Assembly: GCA_024278555.1 (NCBI GenBank) | Contig: JAJRSX010000022.1 | Span: 1 to 13,120 of the forward strand | Reading direction: 5' to 3' | Length of the DNA stretch: 13,120 nucleotides | Source: a bacterium | GTDB lineage: Bacteria; CG2-30-53-67; CG2-30-70-394 | The notes under the pieces: model-generated | What the model was told of the DNA's origin: nothing | Database searches by the model: none | The model's input: only the letters and a program-made list of their open reading frames with translations | Made by a program: the position numbers and the translations under genes | In this document: positions 4,342 through 12,289 of the stretch, piece by piece | Position numbering within the stretch: the stretch's first letter is position 1 | Layout: the number at the start of each line of letters is the position of its first letter

Positions 4342-4538
4342 GAGGATCAGCGGAAATAGCCCCGAGCGTTCCGCCGTCCTTCACACCGCTGGAACACGAA
4401 ACCACGAAAGAGGGAAAGCACGAAAAACAACCCATTGAATTCCTTCGTGTTTTGAACTTTTCGTGCCTTCGTGTCCCCACCCCCTCGAGGTCTCGGGAAC
4501 ATCGACTTTCTCGCCAGCCATGATTTCCGCTGCTCCTC
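4342..4538. repeat. Palindromic element with CACGAA arms and terminal inverted repeats
   Basis: The ends are 16-nt inverted repeats: GAGGATCAGCGGAAAT (4342-4357) and ATTTCCGCTGCTCCTC (4523-4538), with one mismatch. Inside, CCCGAG (4361-4366) faces CTCGGG (4492-4497). Three CACGAA units (4395, 4403, 4419) face three TTCGTG units (4444, 4460, 4468). The spacings are 8 and 16 nt on the left and 16 and 8 nt on the right, an exact mirror about position 4434. The whole can fold into one long imperfect hairpin. No transposase frame and no clear target-site duplication are seen. Its base composition is more A/T-rich than its surroundings. It is best described as a MITE-like, non-autonomous intergenic repeat; its mobility is not shown. 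Confidence 0.6.
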
Positions 4539-4550
4539 GGAGAGGGTATC

Positions 4551-4640
4551 GGTGCGCCGCGCTGCGCTCACCCCACCCTACGGCCGACCGGCCGACACGA
4601 AGCCAAGCGGTAGGGTGCGCCAAGCAGAGCGCGGCGCACC
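4551..4640. repeat. Inverted pair of REP hairpins (BIME-like)
   Basis: Two 31-nt arms (4551-4581 and 4610-4640) are imperfect inverted repeats around a 28-nt spacer. The right arm begins with GTAG (4610-4613), then GGTGCGCC (4614-4621) pairs perfectly with GGCGCACC (4633-4640). The left arm is the same element reversed and ends in CTAC (4578-4581). Two REPs in opposite orientation with GTAG heads facing each other is the layout of bacterial interspersed mosaic elements. It lies just upstream of uppS. Confidence 0.65.
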
Positions 4641-4718
4641 GACCCAAGAGAGCATGGAGATGGGGTGCGAAAATATGGAGTTATTTCCCCACGAGCCCTA
4701 AGATCGATTCTCCCCTTG

Positions 4719-5543
4719 ATGATGCGCGCCGTGGCCGATTCCCCCCTCTCCCAAGAGCTCCTCGACCGGATCGCCCTCCTCGACCCGGAGCGCGTGCCGC
4801 GCCACGTGGCGATCATCATGGACGGCAACGGTCGCTGGGCACAGCGCTTCACCCTGCCGCGTCTCGACGGCCACCGGCGCGGTGCCGAGGTGGTGGAGGG
4901 GATCGTCGACGTGGGCAAGGAGATCGGGGTGGAGGTCCTCACCCTCTACTCCTTCTCCACCGAAAACTGGAGCCGCCCGAAGCTGGAGGTAGCGGCCCTG
5001 ATGCAGATCCTCAAGGGCTACCTCAAGAAGATGGTGCCCAAGATGCAGGCCAAGGGGGTCCGCCTGGAGGCGATCGGGGCCATCGACGCCCTCCCACACG
5101 ACGTCCAGAAGACCCTCGCCTGGGCCCGTGCCGAGACCGCCGCCGGCGAGGCGATCGTCCTCAACCTCGCCCTCTCCTACTCGGGGAGGCAGGAGATCAC
5201 CGCCGCCGCCCGGGCGATTGCCGCAGAGGTGGCTGCCGGAACCCTGCGCCCGGAGGAGGTCGACGAGCCGTGCGTCGCCCGCCACCTGCAGACCGCTCCC
5301 TATCCCGATCCCGACCTGATGATTCGCACCAGCGGCGAGCTGCGCCTCTCCAACTTCCTCCTCTGGCAGCTCGCCTACGCCGAGCTCTACGTCACCGACA
5401 CCCTGTGGCCCGACTTCACCACCGCCGACTTCCTCGACGCGATCCGCGCCTACCAGGGCCGCGAGCGCCGCTTCGGCCGCACCGGGGAGCAGATAGGCGG
5501 GGGCAGGGGCGCTACGCGCCCCGGGATGGGGGATGAGGGATGA
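4719..5543 (+). CDS. uppS: Undecaprenyl diphosphate synthase UppS (cis-prenyltransferase)
   Basis: Predicted 274-residue cytosolic enzyme that extends farnesyl diphosphate with eight isopentenyl diphosphate units to make C55 undecaprenyl diphosphate, the carrier for peptidoglycan and O-antigen synthesis. The signature HVAIIMDGNGRWAQ starts at residue 29, with the magnesium-binding catalytic Asp at 35. FSTENWSRP (79-87) and RTSGELRLSNFLLWQ (203-217) complete the substrate site, and RERRFG (248-253) is the usual family end. E. coli UppS has 253 residues; the extra tail here (about 258-274, IGGGRGATRPGMGDEG) is written by a repeat that begins in the gene. I chose the ATG at 4719 over an upstream GTG (4665) because family N-termini are short; neither has a good Shine-Dalgarno, and the ATG at 4722 is equally possible. 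It is followed by cdsA, its usual partner, though a 161-nt repeat separates them. Confidence 0.93.
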   Translation: MMRAVADSPLSQELLDRIALLDPERVPRHVAIIMDGNGRWAQRFTLPRLDGHRRGAEVVEGIVDVGKEIGVEVLTLYSFSTENWSRPKLEVAALMQILKGYLKKMVPKMQAKGVRLEAIGAIDALPHDVQKTLAWARAETAAGEAIVLNLALSYSGRQEITAAARAIAAEVAAGTLRPEEVDEPCVARHLQTAPYPDPDLMIRTSGELRLSNFLLWQLAYAELYVTDTLWPDFTTADFLDAIRAYQGRERRFGRTGEQIGGGRGATRPGMGDEG

Positions 5544-5704
5544 GGGATGGGGGGGTAGACGGCCCTACGGGCCGAATGAGATAGAGCACAAACTCCCCCT
5601 GAAACATCTACTGGCCGCGTAGCGGCCAACCTCTCCCCCACCCCTCACCCCCCACCCCGCGAGCGTAGCGAGCCCACCCCCGGGGGGGCGCTGCGCGCCT
5701 CCCC
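5506..5704 (+). repeat. Composite triloop-hairpin repeat, copy A
   Basis: Order of parts: hairpin GGGGCGC-TAC-GCGCCCC (5506-5522); G-rich tract with GGGATGA-like 7-nt units (5523-5557); hairpin CGGCCC-TAC-GGGCCG (5560-5574); CCCTGAAAC (5597-5605); hairpin GGCCGC-GTA-GCGGCC (5613-5627); C-rich tract complementary to the G-rich one (5630-5658); GCGAGCGTAGCGAGCC (5659-5674); and a final hairpin GGCGC-TGC-GCGCC (5687-5699) followed by CCCC and the cdsA ATG. The same order of parts recurs at 8675-8850. The G-rich and C-rich tracts can pair and enclose the central hairpins. It covers the uppS 3' end and the whole uppS-cdsA gap. The boundaries are approximate. Confidence 0.6.
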
Positions 5705-6496
5705 ATGACCCGCCTCCTCACCGGTCTCTGCCTCGCCGCGGCCGCCCTCGCGGCGCTCTTGCTGGCCCCGCCGCCCCTCTTCGCCCTCCTCCTCACGGCG
5801 GTGATCCTCGCCACCCAGTGGGAGTACTACAACCTCTTCACCGGCCGCCCGGAGCACGCCAAGCGCCCCCTGGGGCTCGCCTTCTCGGCACTCGTCGCCC
5901 TCTCCTTTTACTGGGGGGTGGAGGCGGCGGCGGCGACCCTGTCTCTGGCGGCGATGGCGATGCTCACCTGGATCCTCTTTCTGGAGCGCAACCGCGAGCG
6001 CGCCATCCACACCACCGCCATCACCCTCTTTGGGATGGCGTACACCGCGTGGAACCTCGGCCACCTGATGCTCCTCCGTCACCTCCCCCACGGCCGCGGG
6101 GCGCTCATCGTCCTCTTCGTCGCCATCTGGACGACCGACACCGGCGCCTACTACGTGGGCAAGAACCTCGGCCGCCACCGCATCTTCCCGGCGGTGAGCC
6201 CGAAGAAGACCTGGGAGGGCTCTATCGGCGGCCTCGTCACTGCCATGGTCGCCGCCGCCATCGCCGCCGCCACCGTCTACCCTCCCTTGACCCCGCCCCA
6301 TGCGGCCCTCCTCGGCCTCGCGGCGGGGATGGCCGGAGAGCTCGGCGACCTCTTCGAGTCGATGCTCAAACGGTCCGCCGGGATCAAAGACTCCTCCCAC
6401 ATCCTCCCCGGCCACGGCGGCCTCCTCGACCGCCTCGACTCCCTCATCTTCGCCGCCCCGGTCTTCTACTACCTGAGCCAGCTCCTGGCGAAATGA
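5705..6496 (+). CDS. cdsA: Phosphatidate cytidylyltransferase CdsA
   Basis: Predicted 263-residue integral membrane enzyme that makes CDP-diacylglycerol from phosphatidic acid and CTP, the branch point to phosphatidylethanolamine and phosphatidylglycerol. Several hydrophobic helices are evident (for example about 5-37, 58-92, 106-125, 132-145 and 173-192). The family signature at residues 219-245 is complete: S-x-L-K-R near 219-223, KD at 228-229, GHGG at 236-239 and DRLD at 242-245. WTTDTGAYYVGKNLGR (142-157) is the conserved cytosolic segment. The length is near E. coli CdsA (285). The ATG is the only possible start, because an in-frame TAG lies at 5666 with no other start codon between. 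No Shine-Dalgarno precedes it; the upstream sequence is a hairpin followed by CCCC. It follows uppS, as in most proteobacteria, and precedes mtaB by 16 nt. Confidence 0.95.
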   Translation: MTRLLTGLCLAAAALAALLLAPPPLFALLLTAVILATQWEYYNLFTGRPEHAKRPLGLAFSALVALSFYWGVEAAAATLSLAAMAMLTWILFLERNRERAIHTTAITLFGMAYTAWNLGHLMLLRHLPHGRGALIVLFVAIWTTDTGAYYVGKNLGRHRIFPAVSPKKTWEGSIGGLVTAMVAAAIAAATVYPPLTPPHAALLGLAAGMAGELGDLFESMLKRSAGIKDSSHILPGHGGLLDRLDSLIFAAPVFYYLSQLLAK

Positions 6497-6512
6497 CGGG
6501 ACACAACCACGG

Positions 6513-7799
6513 ATGAAGGTCCATCTCGACACGGTCGGTTGCCGCCTGAACCAGGCGGAGATCGAGCTCTATGCACGGCAGCTCGAATCGGCGGGCCACA
6601 CGGTGGTGGCGACCCCGGCGGAGGCGGATGTGGCGGTGGTGAACACCTGCGCGGTGACCGGGGCAGCGGCGGCGGACTCGCGCAAGAAGCTGCGCCGCGC
6701 GGCCGGCGGGGAGACCCGGGTGATCGCCACCGGCTGCTGGGCAACCCTCGCCGCCGCCGAGGCGGCGGCGCTCGCGGCCGGGACGGAGGTGGTCCCCAAC
6801 GGACGCAAGGACCGCCTCGTCATCGACCTGCTGGGCCTCTCCGGGGCCTCCTTCGTCTCTGCCGCGCCGCGACGCCCCCTGCCCGGGGTGCGCGGCCGCA
6901 CCCGCGCCTTCATCAAGGTGCAGGATGGGTGTGACCAGCGGTGTGCCTTCTGCGTCACCACCGTGGCCCGTGGCGGCGGCCGCTCCCTCTCGGTGGCCGC
7001 GGTGGTCGCCCAGGTGGCGGCGGCGGAGGGGGGCGGGGCGCGGGAGGTGGTCCTCACCGGCGTCCACCTGGGGAGCTGGGGGCGCGACCTGACCCCGCGC
7101 CGACGTCTCTCCGACCTCATCGCCGCGCTCCTGGCGCGCACCACGGTGGAGCGGGTCGCCCTCTCCTCCCTGGAGCCGTGGGCGGTCGATGGCGACCTCC
7201 TCGCCCTGTGGCGTGACCCGCGCCTCCTGCCACGGCTCCACCTGCCGCTCCAGTCCGGGTGCGCGGCGACCTTGCGACGGATGCGACGGCGGATCACGCC
7301 GGAGCGGTTTGCGGAGGTGGTCGCGGCGGCGCGGGCGGCGATCCCGGAGGTGGCGGTCACCACCGATCTGATCGGAGGTTTCCCGGGGGAGTCGGCGGCG
7401 GACCACCGGGCGAGCGTCGCCTTCGTCGCCGGCCTGGGGCTGGCCGGCGGCCACTGTTTTCCCTTCTCTCCGCGCCCGGCCACCGCCGCGCAGACCATGG
7501 CCGGGCAGGTAGCGCCCCCGCTGCGCAAGGAGCGGGCCGCCGCCCTGCGGGCGGTGGTGGAGGCGAGCGGCCGGGCGTACCGCGACCGCCTCGTGGGGCG
7601 CGAGGTCACGGTCCTGTGGGAGTCGTCGCGGCGCGAAGGGGACGGCTACCGCCTCACCGGCCGCAGCCGCCACGGTGTACGGGTGACCGGCCGGTCACCG
7701 ACACCGCGGACCAACGAGATCGACAAAGTGGTGGTGGAGGCCGTGGACGACCGCGGGGTGGTCGGGCGTGAAACCTTGGCCGCGGATACGGGTCTATAG
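6513..7799 (+). CDS. mtaB: MtaB-like tRNA methylthiotransferase (radical SAM)
   Basis: Predicted 428-residue methylthiotransferase with two Fe-S clusters that adds a methylthio group to a modified adenosine in tRNA; MtaB acts on t6A37 to give ms2t6A. The N-terminal UPF0004 domain has its three cluster cysteines at 10 (TVGCRLNQ), 46 (VVNTCAVTG) and 75 (IATGCWA). The radical SAM motif CDQRCAFC supplies Cys140, 144 and 147. A TRAM-like RNA-binding tail runs from about 360 to 420 (VGREVTVLWE onward). The start VHLDTVGCRLNQAE fits MtaB better than MiaB or RimO, but family assignment among methylthiotransferases by eye is not absolute. It begins 16 nt after cdsA without a strong Shine-Dalgarno and is followed at 8 nt by a glutaredoxin-like gene, so the three are probably cotranscribed. 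Confidence 0.88.
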   Translation: MKVHLDTVGCRLNQAEIELYARQLESAGHTVVATPAEADVAVVNTCAVTGAAAADSRKKLRRAAGGETRVIATGCWATLAAAEAAALAAGTEVVPNGRKDRLVIDLLGLSGASFVSAAPRRPLPGVRGRTRAFIKVQDGCDQRCAFCVTTVARGGGRSLSVAAVVAQVAAAEGGGAREVVLTGVHLGSWGRDLTPRRRLSDLIAALLARTTVERVALSSLEPWAVDGDLLALWRDPRLLPRLHLPLQSGCAATLRRMRRRITPERFAEVVAAARAAIPEVAVTTDLIGGFPGESAADHRASVAFVAGLGLAGGHCFPFSPRPATAAQTMAGQVAPPLRKERAAALRAVVEASGRAYRDRLVGREVTVLWESSRREGDGYRLTGRSRHGVRVTGRSPTPRTNEIDKVVVEAVDDRGVVGRETLAADTGL

Positions 7800-7807
7800 A
7801 TTCCGTC

Positions 7808-8047
7808 ATGGGTCTCTACGCCACCGTCTTTACCACCCCCACCTGCGGCTACTGCACGAAGGCGGTGCAGTATCTGAAGCGGCTCGACATCCCGGTGAAG
7901 AAGCGCGACATCACCAAGGATCCGCGGGCGCTGGCCGAGTGCCGGCGCCGCTCCGGCGGGACCGCGGTGCCGGTGATCTTGCTCAAGGGCAAGACGATCG
8001 TCGGCTTCGACAAGGGCAAGATCGACCGCATCCTCGGGATCGGCTGA
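7808..8047 (+). CDS. Small dithiol glutaredoxin/NrdH-like protein
   Basis: Predicted 79-residue thioredoxin-fold protein. The redox motif CGYC (Cys13, Cys16) follows a first beta strand (YATVFTTPT). GTAVPVILLKGKTIVGFD contains the cis-proline (Pro55) and the Gly-rich turn that binds glutathione or a partner thiol in glutaredoxins. The length matches E. coli Grx1/NrdH-size proteins (75-85 residues). The CGYC motif indicates a dithiol enzyme, not a monothiol CGFS Fe-S carrier. The ATG is the only possible start: an in-frame TGA lies at 7769 and no start codon lies between. It begins 8 nt after mtaB and has no Shine-Dalgarno, which suggests translational coupling. Its electron donor and partner cannot be told from sequence; a role with MtaB is a guess based on adjacency. 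Confidence 0.85.
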   Translation: MGLYATVFTTPTCGYCTKAVQYLKRLDIPVKKRDITKDPRALAECRRRSGGTAVPVILLKGKTIVGFDKGKIDRILGIG

Positions 8048-8062
8048 CCGGTCCCTGTTCGT

Positions 8063-8098
8063 CCTTCGCTATCATCTCCAAGGGGAGTACAGCGAAGG
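8063..8098 (+). promoter_or_regulatory. Hairpin overlapping the Shine-Dalgarno of the next gene
   Basis: CCTTCGCT (8063-8070) pairs perfectly with AGCGAAGG (8091-8098). An inner stem CTCC (8076-8079) and GGAG (8084-8087) closes an AAGG loop. The right arm contains most of the Shine-Dalgarno AAGGAG (8095-8100) that stands 7 nt before the ATG at 8108, so the folded form would hide the ribosome site. It could be a simple translational brake or a chance fold in GC-rich DNA. Confidence 0.4.
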
Positions 8099-8107
8099 AG
8101 AAGAGCC

Positions 8108-8674
8108 ATGGAACGGCGGAATCGTTGGGTTGAACGGGTGCTCGACGCCTACGGCAGCGGGGTGGAGCTCCTCGGCCACACGACCGACCGCCTGAGCCGT
8201 CTGGCACGGCAGGTGGTGCCGGAGGAGCGGGCGTGGCTGAAGCGGCTCCAGGCAGAGACCCACCGGCTGATCGACGCCCACCGGGGTGAGGAGGGGGAGA
8301 CGCTGCGACCGGCGGTGCGCGCCCTGCACCACGAGGTCGCCCTGTTGGAGGCGGCGGTGGTGGCGCGACGCCTCCGCCACCTGGCGCGCACCGGCGCGTA
8401 CGAGCCGGCCGGGGAGGCGCTCCTGGCGATCGACGAGACCGTGGAGCAGGCCGCCGCCGCCCTCGGCGACGACCACCCGGAGGTGGAGGTGGCACGCCGC
8501 AACCTGCGCACCCTCCTCGACGAGACCCACGAGGAGCTGCGCGCCACCCGCGACGGCGCCACCTGGCTCATGGGGTGCATCGGCCGCTTCCGCGAAGAGG
8601 GGGCGGCAGCGGTGTGGCCGCCGTTCCCGGGATCGGAGGAGGTGGCCGTGGAGGAGGATGTGGACGGGATGTGA
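8108..8674 (+). CDS. Unrecognised helical cytosolic protein, 188 residues
   Basis: I do not recognise this protein. It begins at an ATG with a good Shine-Dalgarno (AAGGAG, 7-nt spacing) and has no signal peptide or membrane segment. It is rich in Arg, Glu, Ala and Leu with long predicted amphipathic helices (about 5-58, 63-97, 101-120 and 124-150). There is one Cys (157) in WLMGCIGRF, and an acidic tail (EEVAVEEDVDGM). The composition would suit a helical bundle or an oligomerising protein. It lies 60 nt after the glutaredoxin-like gene and may be the last gene of the uppS-cdsA-mtaB run, or have its own control through the hairpin over its ribosome site. Its stop is followed immediately by repeat copy B. 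Confidence 0.75.
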   Translation: MERRNRWVERVLDAYGSGVELLGHTTDRLSRLARQVVPEERAWLKRLQAETHRLIDAHRGEEGETLRPAVRALHHEVALLEAAVVARRLRHLARTGAYEPAGEALLAIDETVEQAAAALGDDHPEVEVARRNLRTLLDETHEELRATRDGATWLMGCIGRFREEGAAAVWPPFPGSEEVAVEEDVDGM

Positions 8675-8693
8675 GGGCGCGCTTTGCGCGCCC
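8675..8693 (+). terminator. Perfect hairpin touching the stop of the 188-residue ORF
   Basis: GGGCGCGC-TTT-GCGCGCCC forms an 8-bp perfect stem starting at the base after the TGA (8672-8674). No U-tract follows, so intrinsic termination is not certain. It is also the first part of repeat copy B. Confidence 0.4.
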
Positions 8694-8850
8694 GGGAGGT
8701 GGGGAGGTAGGGCAGGTCAGCCCTTCGGGCTGGATGTCTGTGCCGCTGTTTCTCGCCCTGAAACGATTTCATTGGGCGCGCAGCGGCCATCCCCCCCCCT
8801 ACCTCCCTACATCCCTATTTCCCTACCTCCTCGCGGGCGAGCGAAGCGAG
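8675..8850 (+). repeat. Composite triloop-hairpin repeat, copy B
   Basis: Same part order as copy A at 5506: hairpin GGGCGCGC-TTT-GCGCGCCC (8675-8693); G-rich tract (8694-8716); hairpin CAGCCC-TTC-GGGCTG (8718-8732); CCCTGAAAC (8756-8764); imperfect hairpin GGGCGC-GCA-GCGGCC (8774-8788); C-rich tract with 8-nt units of the type CCCTACNT (8790-8829); GCGAGCGAAGCGAGCC (8837-8852, boundary approximate). The two rich tracts are complementary. Spacer sequence between the parts has diverged from copy A. It occupies the gap between converging genes and runs into the 3' end of hemH. Confidence 0.6.
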
Positions 8851-9852
8851 CCCGGCCACCGCATCCGCCCATGCAGGCTCGGCGTTGAGCGACGGGACCA
8901 GGGTGAACGCCTCGCCGCCGGCGGCGAGGAAGGCGTCTCGGCCGCGGATGCCGATCTCCTCCACGGTCTCCAGGCAGTCGGCGGTGAAGGCGGGAGAGAG
9001 GACCGCCAAACGTCGGACGCCGCGCTCGGCGAGGGCCACGATGGTCTTGTCGGTGGCCGGGCCGATCCACGGGATGCGGCCGAAGCGGGATTGGAAGGCG
9101 GTGGTCGAGCCCCCCTCCGCCACCACGAGGGCGTCGCACAAAGCGCGGCTGGTGGCGAGGCACTGGGCCCGATAACAGAGTCGACGGCACCCATCGTCGC
9201 CGTCGCAGCAGCCGTTGGTGAGGCAGCGGCCGGTGGGGTCGGAGCGGCGGATCTGCCGCTCCGGCAGGCCGTGGTAGCTGAACAGGAGGAAGTCCGGCTG
9301 CGCCTGCTCCAGCACCGGCCGCGCCACCGCCGCCCACGCCGCGATAAAGGCGGGGTGGGCGTAGTAGGGGAGGATCGCCTCGATGTGGGGCGGATCCCAG
9401 AGGCGGCCGGCGACCCGGTAGACCTCCTCCAGGATCGCGCCGGTGGTGGAGGCGGCAAACTGGGGGTAGAGGGGCAGGAGGCGGATCCGCCGCACCCCCT
9501 TGTCACAGAGCTCGCCGACGGCGGTGGCCAGGCTCGGCTCGCCGTAGCGCATCCCCAGGGCGACCGGGGTATCCGGGCCGAGGTGTGCCGCCACCTGTTC
9601 GGCAAGGGAGCGGCCGTGGACCAGCAGCGGTGACCCCTCGGGGAGCCACACCTTGCGGTACTGCTCCGCCACCCGTCGCGGCCGGAAGGGGAGGATGATC
9701 AGGTTGAGCAGGGCCGCGCGCCCCACCGGGTTCATGTCGAGCACCCGGCGGTCGCCGAGGAAGGCGCGCAGGAAGCGACGGATCGCCCGGGGCGTCGGCG
9801 CCTCGGGGGTGCCGAGGTTGGCCAGGAGGAGACCGGTGGTGACGGAGGACAT
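8815..9852 (-). CDS. hemH: Ferrochelatase HemH
   Basis: Predicted 345-residue enzyme that inserts ferrous iron into protoporphyrin IX (or coproporphyrin III) in the last steps of haem synthesis. Family landmarks are GLLLANLGTPEAP (7-19), YPQFAASTTGAIL (129-141), the catalytic His194 in SYHGLPERQI, FQSRFGR (253-259) and Glu295 in PAFTADCLETVEEIG. An insert at 205-231 has six cysteines (210, 215, 216, 222, 226, 231), a pattern that some bacterial ferrochelatases use to bind a [2Fe-2S] cluster. Cluster presence here is inference. The ATG at 9852 has no evident Shine-Dalgarno. The last eleven residues (LASLAREEVGK) and the stop are written by repeat copy B. It is divergent from the aconitase gene. 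Confidence 0.95.
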   Translation of the reverse strand: MSSVTTGLLLANLGTPEAPTPRAIRRFLRAFLGDRRVLDMNPVGRAALLNLIILPFRPRRVAEQYRKVWLPEGSPLLVHGRSLAEQVAAHLGPDTPVALGMRYGEPSLATAVGELCDKGVRRIRLLPLYPQFAASTTGAILEEVYRVAGRLWDPPHIEAILPYYAHPAFIAAWAAVARPVLEQAQPDFLLFSYHGLPERQIRRSDPTGRCLTNGCCDGDDGCRRLCYRAQCLATSRALCDALVVAEGGSTTAFQSRFGRIPWIGPATDKTIVALAERGVRRLAVLSPAFTADCLETVEEIGIRGRDAFLAAGGEAFTLVPSLNAEPAWADAVAGLASLAREEVGK

Positions 9853-9943: not shown

Positions 9944-9973
9944 TTGATCAGCGACACGAAAATCCACGACAAT
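9944..9973 (+). promoter_or_regulatory. Possible sigma-70 promoter for the aconitase gene
   Basis: TTGATC (9944-9949) and GACAAT (9968-9973) match four of six consensus bases each and are 18 nt apart, in the least GC-rich part of the hemH-aconitase gap. Transcription would begin near 9980, about 50 nt before the chosen ATG. It was judged by eye only. Confidence 0.3.
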
Positions 9974-10018
9974 GACCCCTTCGCGGTCGCTCCCCGCGGC
10001 CCCCTCTTCCCCACCATC

Positions 10019-10022
10019 GAGG
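10019..10022 (+). promoter_or_regulatory. Ribosome site deciding the aconitase start
   Basis: GAGG stands 8 nt before the ATG at 10031 but only 2 nt before the ATG at 10025. This favours 10031, which also gives an N-terminus in register with mitochondrial-type aconitases. Confidence 0.45.
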
Positions 10023-10030
10023 CCATGCCC

Positions 10031-12289
10031 ATGTTGATCGAGCTCGACGCCGTTCGCTCCCTCTACGACTCCCTGGAGGCGACCCACAGCGCCATGCGCG
10101 CCAAGCTGGGGCGACCCCTGACCCTGGCGGAGAAGGTCCTCTTCTCCCACATGGATGACCCCACCGCGGTCGACTACGAGCGCGGTACCACCGACCTGCT
10201 GCTGCGCCCCGACCGGGTGGCGATGCAGGATGCCACCGCCCAGATGGCGATCCTCCAGTTCATGACCGCCGGCTTGCCGACCACCGCGGTGCCCTCGACG
10301 GTCCACTGCGACCACCTGATCCAGGCCCACAGCGGCGCCGGCGCCGACATGCCGATCGCCCTGGACACCAACCGCGAGGTGTACGACTTCCTCCACTCCG
10401 CCGCCATGAAGTACGGCATGGGGTTCTGGAAGCCGGGCGCCGGGATCATCCACCAGGTGGTCCTGGAGAACTACGCGGTGCCGGGGATGATGATGGTGGG
10501 GACCGACTCCCACACCCCGAACGCCGGCGGCCTCGGGATGATCGCCATCGGCGTCGGCGGCGCCGACGCGGTGGACGTGATGACCGGCCAGGGATTCGGC
10601 ACCCGCGCCCCGAAGCTCATCGGCATCAAGCTGACCGGCAAGCTCTCCGGCTGGACCTCGCCGAAGGACGTGATCCTGAAGGTGGCGCAGCTCCTCACGG
10701 TGAAGGGCGGCACCGGCAAGATCGTCGAGTACTTCGGCGACGGCGCCGAGGCGATCTCCTGCACCGGCAAGGCGACGATCACCAACATGGGGGCGGAGAT
10801 CGGCGCCACCTGTTCGATGTTCAACTACGACGACGCCATGGGGCGCTACCTGCGCGCCACCGAGCGGGGTGAGGTGGCGGAGCTCGCCGACGCCCACCGG
10901 GCGGCGCTGCGCTCCGACGCGGAGGTCCACGCCGACCCGGCCTCCTTCTACGACGAGGTGGTGGAGATCAACCTCTCCGAGCTGGAGCCGCAGATCGTCG
11001 GCCCGCACACCCCGGACCTCGGCCGCCCGGTCTCCCAGTGGGGCGCGGACACCGAGGCGAACGGCTGGCCCACGGAGATCTCCGCGGCGCTGATCGGTTC
11101 GTGCACCAACTCCTCCTACGAGGACCTCACCCGCGCCGTCTCCATCGCCCGCCAGGCGGCGGCCCACGGCCTGAAGGCGAAGGCGGACTTCTTCGTCTCC
11201 CCAGGCTCCGACCGGGTACAGGCGACCATCGACCGCGATGGCCTCACCGCCGACTTCGAGAAGGTGGGCGGGGTCGTCCTGGCCAACGCCTGCGGGCCGT
11301 GCATCGGCCAGTGGAAGCGCGACGACGGCGACGGGGTGAACACGATCATCACCTCGTTCAACCGCAACTTCAAAAAGCGCGCCGACGGCAACCCGGACAC
11401 CCAGGCCTTCATCGGCTCCCCCGAGGTGGTGGTGGCGGCGGCGATCGCCGGGACCACCAAGTTCAACCCGGCAACCGACGAGTTGGAGGGGGCCGACGGG
11501 GTACGCTTCCGGCTGGAGCCGCCGTCCGGCGTCGAGCTTCCGGAGAGCGGCTTCGCCACCAAGGAGGGCGGCTACGTCGCCCCCACGAACAGCGGCGAGG
11601 TGGTGGTCTCCCCGACGAGCGAGCGCATCGCCCTGCTGGAGCCCTTTGGGCCGCGCGACCCGGCAAAGGACTTCCAGGACCTGCCGATCCTGGTCAAGGC
11701 CCTCGGCAAGTGCACCACCGACCACGTCTCCCCGGCCGGCCCGTGGCTCCGCTTCCGCGGCCACCTCGATAACATCTCCAACAACATGTACATCGGGGCG
11801 ATCAACGCCTTTACCGAGGAGGCGGGCAAGGGGATGAACGTCCTCACCGGCGAGACCGGCGTCGACTATAACCAGATCGCCCGCGACTACAAGGCCAAGG
11901 GGCTCGGCTGGGTGGTCATCGCCGACGAGAACTACGGCGAGGGGAGCTCCCGCGAGCACGCCGCCATGGAGCCCCGCCACCTCGGCTGCCGCGCCATTGT
12001 CGCCCGCTCCTTTGCCCGCATCGCGGAGGCGAACCTGAAGAAGCAGGGGATCCTGCCCCTCTGGTTCAAGAACAAGGCGGACTACGACCTCTTCCAGGAA
12101 AGGGACCGCGTCACCCTCAACGACATGGCATCCCTCGCCCCCGGCAAGGAGGTCACCCTCACCGTGACCCACGAGGACGGCTCCACCGACACGGTGGCGT
12201 GCAGCCACACCCTGAACCAGGAGCAGATCGACTGGTTTGATGCCGGCTCAGCCCTCAACTACCTGGCGCAGCAGCGGCAGGCGGGGTAG
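10031..12289 (+). CDS. acn: Aconitate hydratase, mitochondrial type
   Basis: Predicted 752-residue [4Fe-4S] enzyme of the TCA cycle that interconverts citrate and isocitrate. It resembles mitochondrial ACO2 throughout (about 750 residues when mature): RVAMQDATAQMAILQF (62-77), STVHCDHLIQA (89-99), GTDSHTPNAGG (157-167), SGWTSPKDVILKVA (206-219) and GEGSSREHAAMEPRHLG (636-652). This is neither the 890-residue AcnA nor the 860-residue AcnB type of E. coli. The cluster cysteines are Cys358 (GSCTNSSYED), Cys421 and Cys424 (ANACGPCIGQW). The catalytic Ser/Arg segment GSSREH is intact. The start at 10031 is supported by GAGG at 8 nt; an ATG at 10025 adds two residues. It is transcribed away from hemH, possibly from the promoter at 9944-9973, and ends before a strong hairpin. 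Confidence 0.95.
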   Translation: MLIELDAVRSLYDSLEATHSAMRAKLGRPLTLAEKVLFSHMDDPTAVDYERGTTDLLLRPDRVAMQDATAQMAILQFMTAGLPTTAVPSTVHCDHLIQAHSGAGADMPIALDTNREVYDFLHSAAMKYGMGFWKPGAGIIHQVVLENYAVPGMMMVGTDSHTPNAGGLGMIAIGVGGADAVDVMTGQGFGTRAPKLIGIKLTGKLSGWTSPKDVILKVAQLLTVKGGTGKIVEYFGDGAEAISCTGKATITNMGAEIGATCSMFNYDDAMGRYLRATERGEVAELADAHRAALRSDAEVHADPASFYDEVVEINLSELEPQIVGPHTPDLGRPVSQWGADTEANGWPTEISAALIGSCTNSSYEDLTRAVSIARQAAAHGLKAKADFFVSPGSDRVQATIDRDGLTADFEKVGGVVLANACGPCIGQWKRDDGDGVNTIITSFNRNFKKRADGNPDTQAFIGSPEVVVAAAIAGTTKFNPATDELEGADGVRFRLEPPSGVELPESGFATKEGGYVAPTNSGEVVVSPTSERIALLEPFGPRDPAKDFQDLPILVKALGKCTTDHVSPAGPWLRFRGHLDNISNNMYIGAINAFTEEAGKGMNVLTGETGVDYNQIARDYKAKGLGWVVIADENYGEGSSREHAAMEPRHLGCRAIVARSFARIAEANLKKQGILPLWFKNKADYDLFQERDRVTLNDMASLAPGKEVTLTVTHEDGSTDTVACSHTLNQEQIDWFDAGSALNYLAQQRQAG

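Follow-up and report, generated by a model that had tools for sequence, protein, structure and literature searches.

The window studied here is the whole 13,120-nucleotide (nt) stretch of forward strand at positions 1 to 13,120 of contig JAJRSX010000022.1 (GenBank assembly GCA_024278555.1), from a bacterium of the GTDB lineage CG2-30-53-67; CG2-30-70-394. It holds two copies of a composite palindromic element, both on the forward strand: copy 1, between uppS and cdsA, starts at 5506 and reaches at least position 5673, and an extra hairpin carries it to 5704, abutting the cdsA ATG; copy 2 (8675-8853) lies between an upstream open reading frame (ORF) and the convergent hemH. In each, an outer hairpin (H1) is followed by a G-rich array of 7- or 8-nt units, an inner hairpin (H2), a conserved 40-nt spacer, a second inner hairpin (H3), a C-rich array and an end motif (H4). 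An earlier note, made from the letters of this DNA, had listed such parts in the same order for both segments, and their string positions bear this out.

In copy 1, H1 is GGGGCGC-TAC-GCGCCCC (5506..5522; string position and fold) and stands on the side facing the stop of uppS. The uppS frame reads through this hairpin and ends at a TGA (5541-5543) within the G-rich 7-nt array (GGGATGRGGGATGA..., 5523..5555; ORF list and string position). H2, ACGGCCC-TAC-GGGCCG (5559..5574; core alignment, fold, compensating-change test and string position), precedes the spacer (5575..5610, family consensus AAnGAGATGnCGATGGAAGCCnCCCACGAAAC; core alignment), in which the motif CCCTGAAAC, found by string position at 5597-5605, is a variant of the family consensus CCCACGAAAC of the core alignment. 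H3, CTGGCCGC-GTA-GCGGCCA (5611..5628; core alignment, fold, compensating-change test and string position), is followed by the C-rich array that partners 5523-5555 (5630..5658; fold and arm-swap test), and this by the end motif H4, GCGAGC-GTA-GCGAGC (GCGAGCGTAGCGAGC, 5659..5673; motif searches and string position). The additional outer hairpin (5683..5704; fold and string position) is flush with the cdsA ATG at 5705, a start that is backed by an NCBIfam profile.

Copy 2 begins directly 3′ of the TGA (8672-8674) of the upstream ORF with its H1 (8675..8693; fold, ORF list and string position), followed by the G-rich array GGGAGGTGGGGAGGTAGGGCAGG (8694..8716; fold and string position) and by H2, TCAGCCC-TTC-GGGCTG (8717..8732; core alignment and compensating-change test), in which a compensatory A-T stands for G-C. 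The spacer (8733..8771), with CCCTGAAAC at 8756-8764, and H3 (8772..8789), which has one mismatch, are both placed by core alignment and string position. The C-rich array is built of 8-nt units, CCCTACCT CCCTACAT CCCTATTT CCCTACCT (8789..8830; fold and string position), and the end motif H4, GGGCGAGCGAAGCGAGCCC (8835..8853; ORF list and string position), is entered by the convergent hemH frame, the tail of which reads ..LASLAREE.

As RNA, each window copy is predicted to fold into a single long G-rich/C-rich stem around the inner hairpins, with a stability relative to dinucleotide shuffles of z -5.4 for copy 1 and z -6.1 for copy 2 (0/200 shuffles as stable); the DNA folding of copy 1 is also strong (z -4.7). 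In the family consensus H2 has the loop TNC and H3 the loop GNA, and the two flank the spacer as opposite strands. The end motif GCGAGC-GNA-GCGAGC is a tandem direct repeat; any hairpin that it forms would be weak and contain tandem G.A mismatches.

A family restricted to the genus, with maintained pairing

In the window's genome BLAST returned 69 matches with copy 1 as query and 50 with copy 2. A covariance model of the H2-spacer-H3 core, built from 27 aligned full cores, found at least 103 copies (E<=0.01) in this 3.06-Mb genome and at least 19 in the sole other genome in the genus. Scoring covered 150 candidates in each genome, which makes these counts lower bounds, and the E-values, from short calibrations, are rough. 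The same model found no copies in six additional genomes from the class, nor in five unrelated genomes. This is a family of about 100 structured repeats that is restricted to this genus among the genomes tested. Many copies are found close to contig ends, no more than a few hundred bases away (C57:1-53, C195:39-91, C192:27581-27635, C158:7289-7367), and the short-read assembly is probably broken by the family, with its copies undercounted.

Pairing in the inner hairpins has been maintained as the copies diverged. Across 91 distinct copies, two-sided compensating changes are seen at 10 of the 13 inner-hairpin base pairs, and 62 compensating cells were observed versus 27 in shuffles; on none of the five measures did any of the 500 shuffles score as high, and the signal collapses in column-slid controls. 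The alignment was fitted to the covariance model, so structure is somewhat favoured in these figures; the clearest single case, the change of an H2 G-C to A-T in 10 of 27 copies, is already visible without model fitting. The long arms lend independent support: cognate G-rich and C-rich arms pair at a mean of -46.7 kcal/mol versus -42.7 for arms swapped between copies (0/20,000 permutations as low). The array units, of 7 or 8 nt, differ between copies (GGGATGA, GGGGTGG, GGGGTTA, GGGAGGTA, GTAGAAA), with GGGATGG, GGGGTGG, GGGGTGA and GGGATGA dominant, and changes of unit tend to occur in both arms of one copy together. G4 motifs are present in 48/88 left arms and 58/88 right arms.

The earlier note had suggested either selection on a fold or one mobile family, and the results support both, which are not alternatives here: compensating changes in both inner hairpins lie well above the shuffled and column-slid controls and the arms co-vary, while the homologues are dispersed and their presence differs from that in the sister genome. 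The covariance-model search and covariation test that it had proposed yielded many more copies, in conserved order and with pairing maintained. Its view that structure is conserved over sequence stands as regards structure; sequence is conserved too, the identity between copies having a median of 74% and a maximum of 88% over at least 110 nt. Dispersal and RNA-level constraint are well supported. No Rfam family was matched at gathering score, the only matches being sub-threshold, GC-driven ones to microRNAs and long non-coding RNAs, and no description of the composite was found in those openly licensed papers that the search covered. The note's statement that no named family fits is therefore right for the composite and not for its modules, REP-like hairpins and G-rich heptad arrays, which are known. 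The sequence CTGATGAG...CGAAAC has some likeness to a hammerhead, but we set this reading aside because there was no Rfam match and the spacer tolerates long inserts.

Half-elements are also present, as are elements that hold other inserted repeats, and in copies L025, L026, L030 and L016 a second 7-nt array (CTACTTT / GTAGAAA) sits within the H2-H3 spacer. In gaps on contigs C68, C191, C171 and C42 (L204, L183, L201, L142), GTAG-type-REP-like repeats GGTAGGAGGGGGTTGTACCCCCGATCC, frequently as inverted dimers with CGGCCCGAAGGGCCGG, lie inside or beside element copies, so that those gaps hold no fewer than two nested palindrome families. The window has other repeats of its own: an inverted repeat of a common type, ACACGAAACCACGAAAG...TTTCGTGCCTTCGTGT, in the recJ-uppS gap (4384-4490), and a second composite palindrome, GGTGCGCCGCGCTGCGCTC...GGTAGGGTGCGCCAAGCAGAGCGCGGCGCACC (4546-4650), which is outside the family described here and has a look-alike at ~160-225.

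Placement between genes and the two gene-facing edges

The assembly is fragmented, and the context data come from the sequence surrounding copies and from sampled stretches of the sister genome; a simple hexamer model, trained on the analysed stretches, was used to call genes, and their starts are confirmed for part only. All of 89 copies fall outside predicted genes. Read in the orientation of the element, both flanking genes run with it at 62 copies and both against it at 14; six copies lie between convergent genes, two between divergent genes and five at contig ends. The core is sense in 62 of the 76 co-directional gaps (two-sided binomial p=2e-8), and divergent gaps are under-represented with the element (2/79 versus 17/142, p=0.02). 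Co-directional gaps have a median length of 213 nt with the element and 43.5 nt without it. The alignments and gap sequences show no intrinsic terminator signature, the hairpins being followed by C-rich arrays or spacer instead of a U run.

On the stop-facing side, GG follows the stop codon in 42/70 upstream genes versus 22/136 other genes (p=4e-10), and stop codons in the left (G-rich) arms exceed those in shuffles; in many cases the G-rich array and the upstream stop codon run into one another, as they do for uppS.

On the start-facing side it is the end motif that stands out. Searching for GCGAGC-NNN-GCGAGC with at most one mismatch gave 106 occurrences, 23 in genes and 83 intergenic. Of these 83, 47 are 0-15 nt upstream of a sense start and eight adjoin the stop codon of a gene that runs convergently; no motif lies within 30 nt downstream of a sense stop or, at that distance, points away from an antisense start. 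With at most two mismatches allowed, outer ends like these occur on 50/79 start-facing sides versus 16/89 stop-facing sides, and several of the stop-facing calls are actually perfect GCGCGC-type palindromes. The end motif is weak as RNA, at -2.1 kcal/mol versus -11 to -13 for the other outer hairpins, and likewise weak as DNA by the parameters used. The start-facing motif lies 0-12 nt ahead of the next ATG, and a Shine-Dalgarno-like 4-mer precedes only 1/35 genes with a flush motif, versus 15/41 element-adjacent genes without one and 33/80 other genes, and the local minimum free energy around flush-motif starts is weaker (-6.6 versus -11.6 kcal/mol, p=2e-8). The starts of the conserved downstream genes are supported as genuine by NCBIfam profiles, whose alignments begin at or close to residue 1 (fmt, DnaJ, argC, recR, rmlD, hemC, fabH, dut, purF); these downstream genes are mixed housekeeping genes without a common function.

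We rejected the idea that the end motif is a widespread bacterial feature, since in 290 genomes only one, the unrelated G187, had more than a few (12 versus 51 here), and there it is part of a different repeat, GTCATCCTGAG-GCGAGCGCAGCGAGC-CGAAGGATC. The G187 repeats GTCATCCTGAG-GCGAGCGNAGCGAGC-CGAAGGATC share the GCGAGCGNAGCGAGC motif in another context, away from start codons. The sister genome has no exact end motifs (0).

Dispersal, rival explanations and a proposed role at operon junctions

We compared 18 orthologous gaps with the sister genome, whose compared proteins are ~85% identical. On visual inspection, roughly half of them contain a diverged copy or what is left of one, and around eight are empty; empty sister gaps measure 52-108 nt versus 181-265 nt where the element is present. 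At one orthologous gap (C69:2504-2583 versus sister contig C12 ~9967-10108) the elements have opposite orientations, which suggests independent insertion or inversion. There has been no recent burst, because the copies are at most 88% identical with a median of 74%. No parent insertion sequence was identified; the genome has four Y1_Tnp (RAYT-like) genes, on contigs C27, C70, C170 and C185.

The nearest known relatives in kind are the REP, BIME and REPIN repeats, in which hairpins paired in inverted orientation occupy transcribed gaps between genes that are unidirectional or convergent; the termini of these repeats can give flanking ORFs a stop codon (PMC3733652, PMC3116915). Our element has in common with them high-copy extragenic GC-rich hairpins, inverted pairs and compensating changes. 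It differs in lacking the GTAG/CGTC tag beside H2 and H3 (the consensus flanks are GGAC-H2-AA and GC-TGGCC..-ACC) and linkage to a RAYT gene, and in having two long heptad/octad arms, a conserved spacer and a start-codon-specific end motif. The arms recall the G-quadruplex-forming G-rich heptads GGGNATC of Xanthomonas and GGGGA(C/T)T of Nostoc, which lie between aligned ORFs, sometimes as inverted pairs, on the coding strand at or over stops and on the non-coding strand before starts (PMC4692102). This strand placement at stops and starts is shared (PMC4692102), but neither heptad is the unit of our element, whose units vary by copy and whose arrays are bound up with a constant hairpin core and with outer hairpins. 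The start side resembles the TAACTGA repeats of marine Beggiatoaceae, stop-containing heptamers a few nt upstream of starts where canonical ribosome-binding sites are rare (PMC4679880). The TAACTGA repeats differ from our element in having a single invariant unit and no hairpin core or palindromic architecture. Repeats of the ERIC, BOX and NEMIS type are imperfect palindromes of ~100-200 nt, intergenic, often transcribed and presumably moved in trans. By their descriptions our element is set apart from these, as no terminal inverted repeat or target duplication is shown for it and the lineage is unrelated; all three are named among bacterial intergenic repeats (PMC2229807, PMC3049150, PMC3733652). 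The modules themselves are familiar; what is new is the composite, together with its missing RAYT linkage and the edge-specific ends.

We propose, with a probability of roughly 0.55 and on the strength of sequence comparison, that this is an old, dispersed, non-autonomous REP/BIME-like palindrome of ~100 copies that is now kept as intercistronic mRNA punctuation, the latter role being what we infer from its placement and edges. It would have originated as the inverted hairpin pair of a mobile source, spread in trans by a putative transposase with no sign of recent activity, and survived in transcribed gaps between genes. Co-transcribed within a polycistronic mRNA, the G-rich array could provide the upstream frame with stop codons. 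The long G/C stem, together with its inner hairpins, could keep the two cistrons apart and protect the 3′ end of the upstream one against exonucleases, and a start-facing end that stays open may allow translation of the next gene in the absence of a Shine-Dalgarno site.

Several observations weigh against this proposal. There are the 14 antisense copies, and element strands still agree in 8/12 pairs (four of them from one contig) when the flanking genes are on opposite strands, so that the replication strand may have some influence. Near-identical copies are absent, and mobility has not been caught in the act; insertion ends and target duplications are unreadable because the gap sequence outside the element is unconserved between the two genomes. 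The four Y1_Tnp contigs hold no covariance-model match, and the Y1_Tnp genes' own ends, of a short GGGGTCAGG / CTGACCCC type, are unrelated to the element hairpins. The edge features, too, could be the residue of a filter against harmful insertions rather than a function.

This insertion filter, which explains part of the edge features without function, is the main rival. In its full form the element would be purely selfish, a decaying REP/MITE-like repeat with no host role, whose position and ends mirror the insertions that were tolerated (gaps, embedded stops, a weak start-side hairpin). Turnover between the two species of the genus, the divergence of the copies, the half-elements and the elements with inserted repeats, and the functional mixture of the downstream genes would all fit, but the compensating changes and arm co-variation require that pairing was upheld during or after spread, the core orientation is skewed 62:14 despite near-symmetric arms, and some orthologous gaps retain a copy while its sequence diverges. 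We consider the purely selfish account unlikely, though it deserves to be taken seriously. It is decidedly less probable that we are dealing with a DNA-level cruciform or single-stranded DNA element, a site for a nucleoid, gyrase, replication or repair protein, with its strand set by replication. The strong DNA folding of copy 1 speaks for such a site, as do the agreement of element strands within contigs (31/38 pairs), which persists beside opposite-strand genes as noted above, and a difference in third-position T/A skew between genes on the same strand and those on the opposite one (p=0.004). The corresponding GC skew shows no such difference, however (p=0.84), and the avoidance of divergent gaps, the edge-specific ends and the stop-codon overlap are all related to genes.

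A little more doubtful again is a cis-regulatory RNA or binding site for a post-transcriptional regulator, composed of the spacer (GATGACGATGGAAGC..CACGAAAC) and the start-proximal motif, as in the proposal made for the Beggiatoaceae TAACTGA repeats. The spacer is indeed conserved and unpaired, and the start-flush motif with scarce Shine-Dalgarno sites parallels the TAACTGA case (PMC4679880), whereas the downstream genes share no function, long inserts can replace the spacer, and copies and motif turn over fast, to the point that exact end motifs are missing from the sister genome.

Intercistronic punctuation, our preferred reading, has a bolder extension that we regard as rather unlikely: the mobile palindrome might have taken over the stop-to-start segments at dozens of operon junctions, with ribosome-binding regions replaced by a repeat-derived, Shine-Dalgarno-free, low-structure leader ending in GCGAGC-NNN-GCGAGC, such that initiation at conserved, probably essential genes would depend on the repeat.

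The element combines REP-type hairpins with G-rich heptad arrays, two repeat classes usually considered separately, in a single unit with co-varying arms, and its end motifs differ according to the gene edge, start or stop, that they face. As the family is lineage-specific and its host uncultured, the direct impact is moderate; it offers about 100 natural cases in which the effects of an intercistronic repeat on mRNA stability and on Shine-Dalgarno-independent initiation may be studied.

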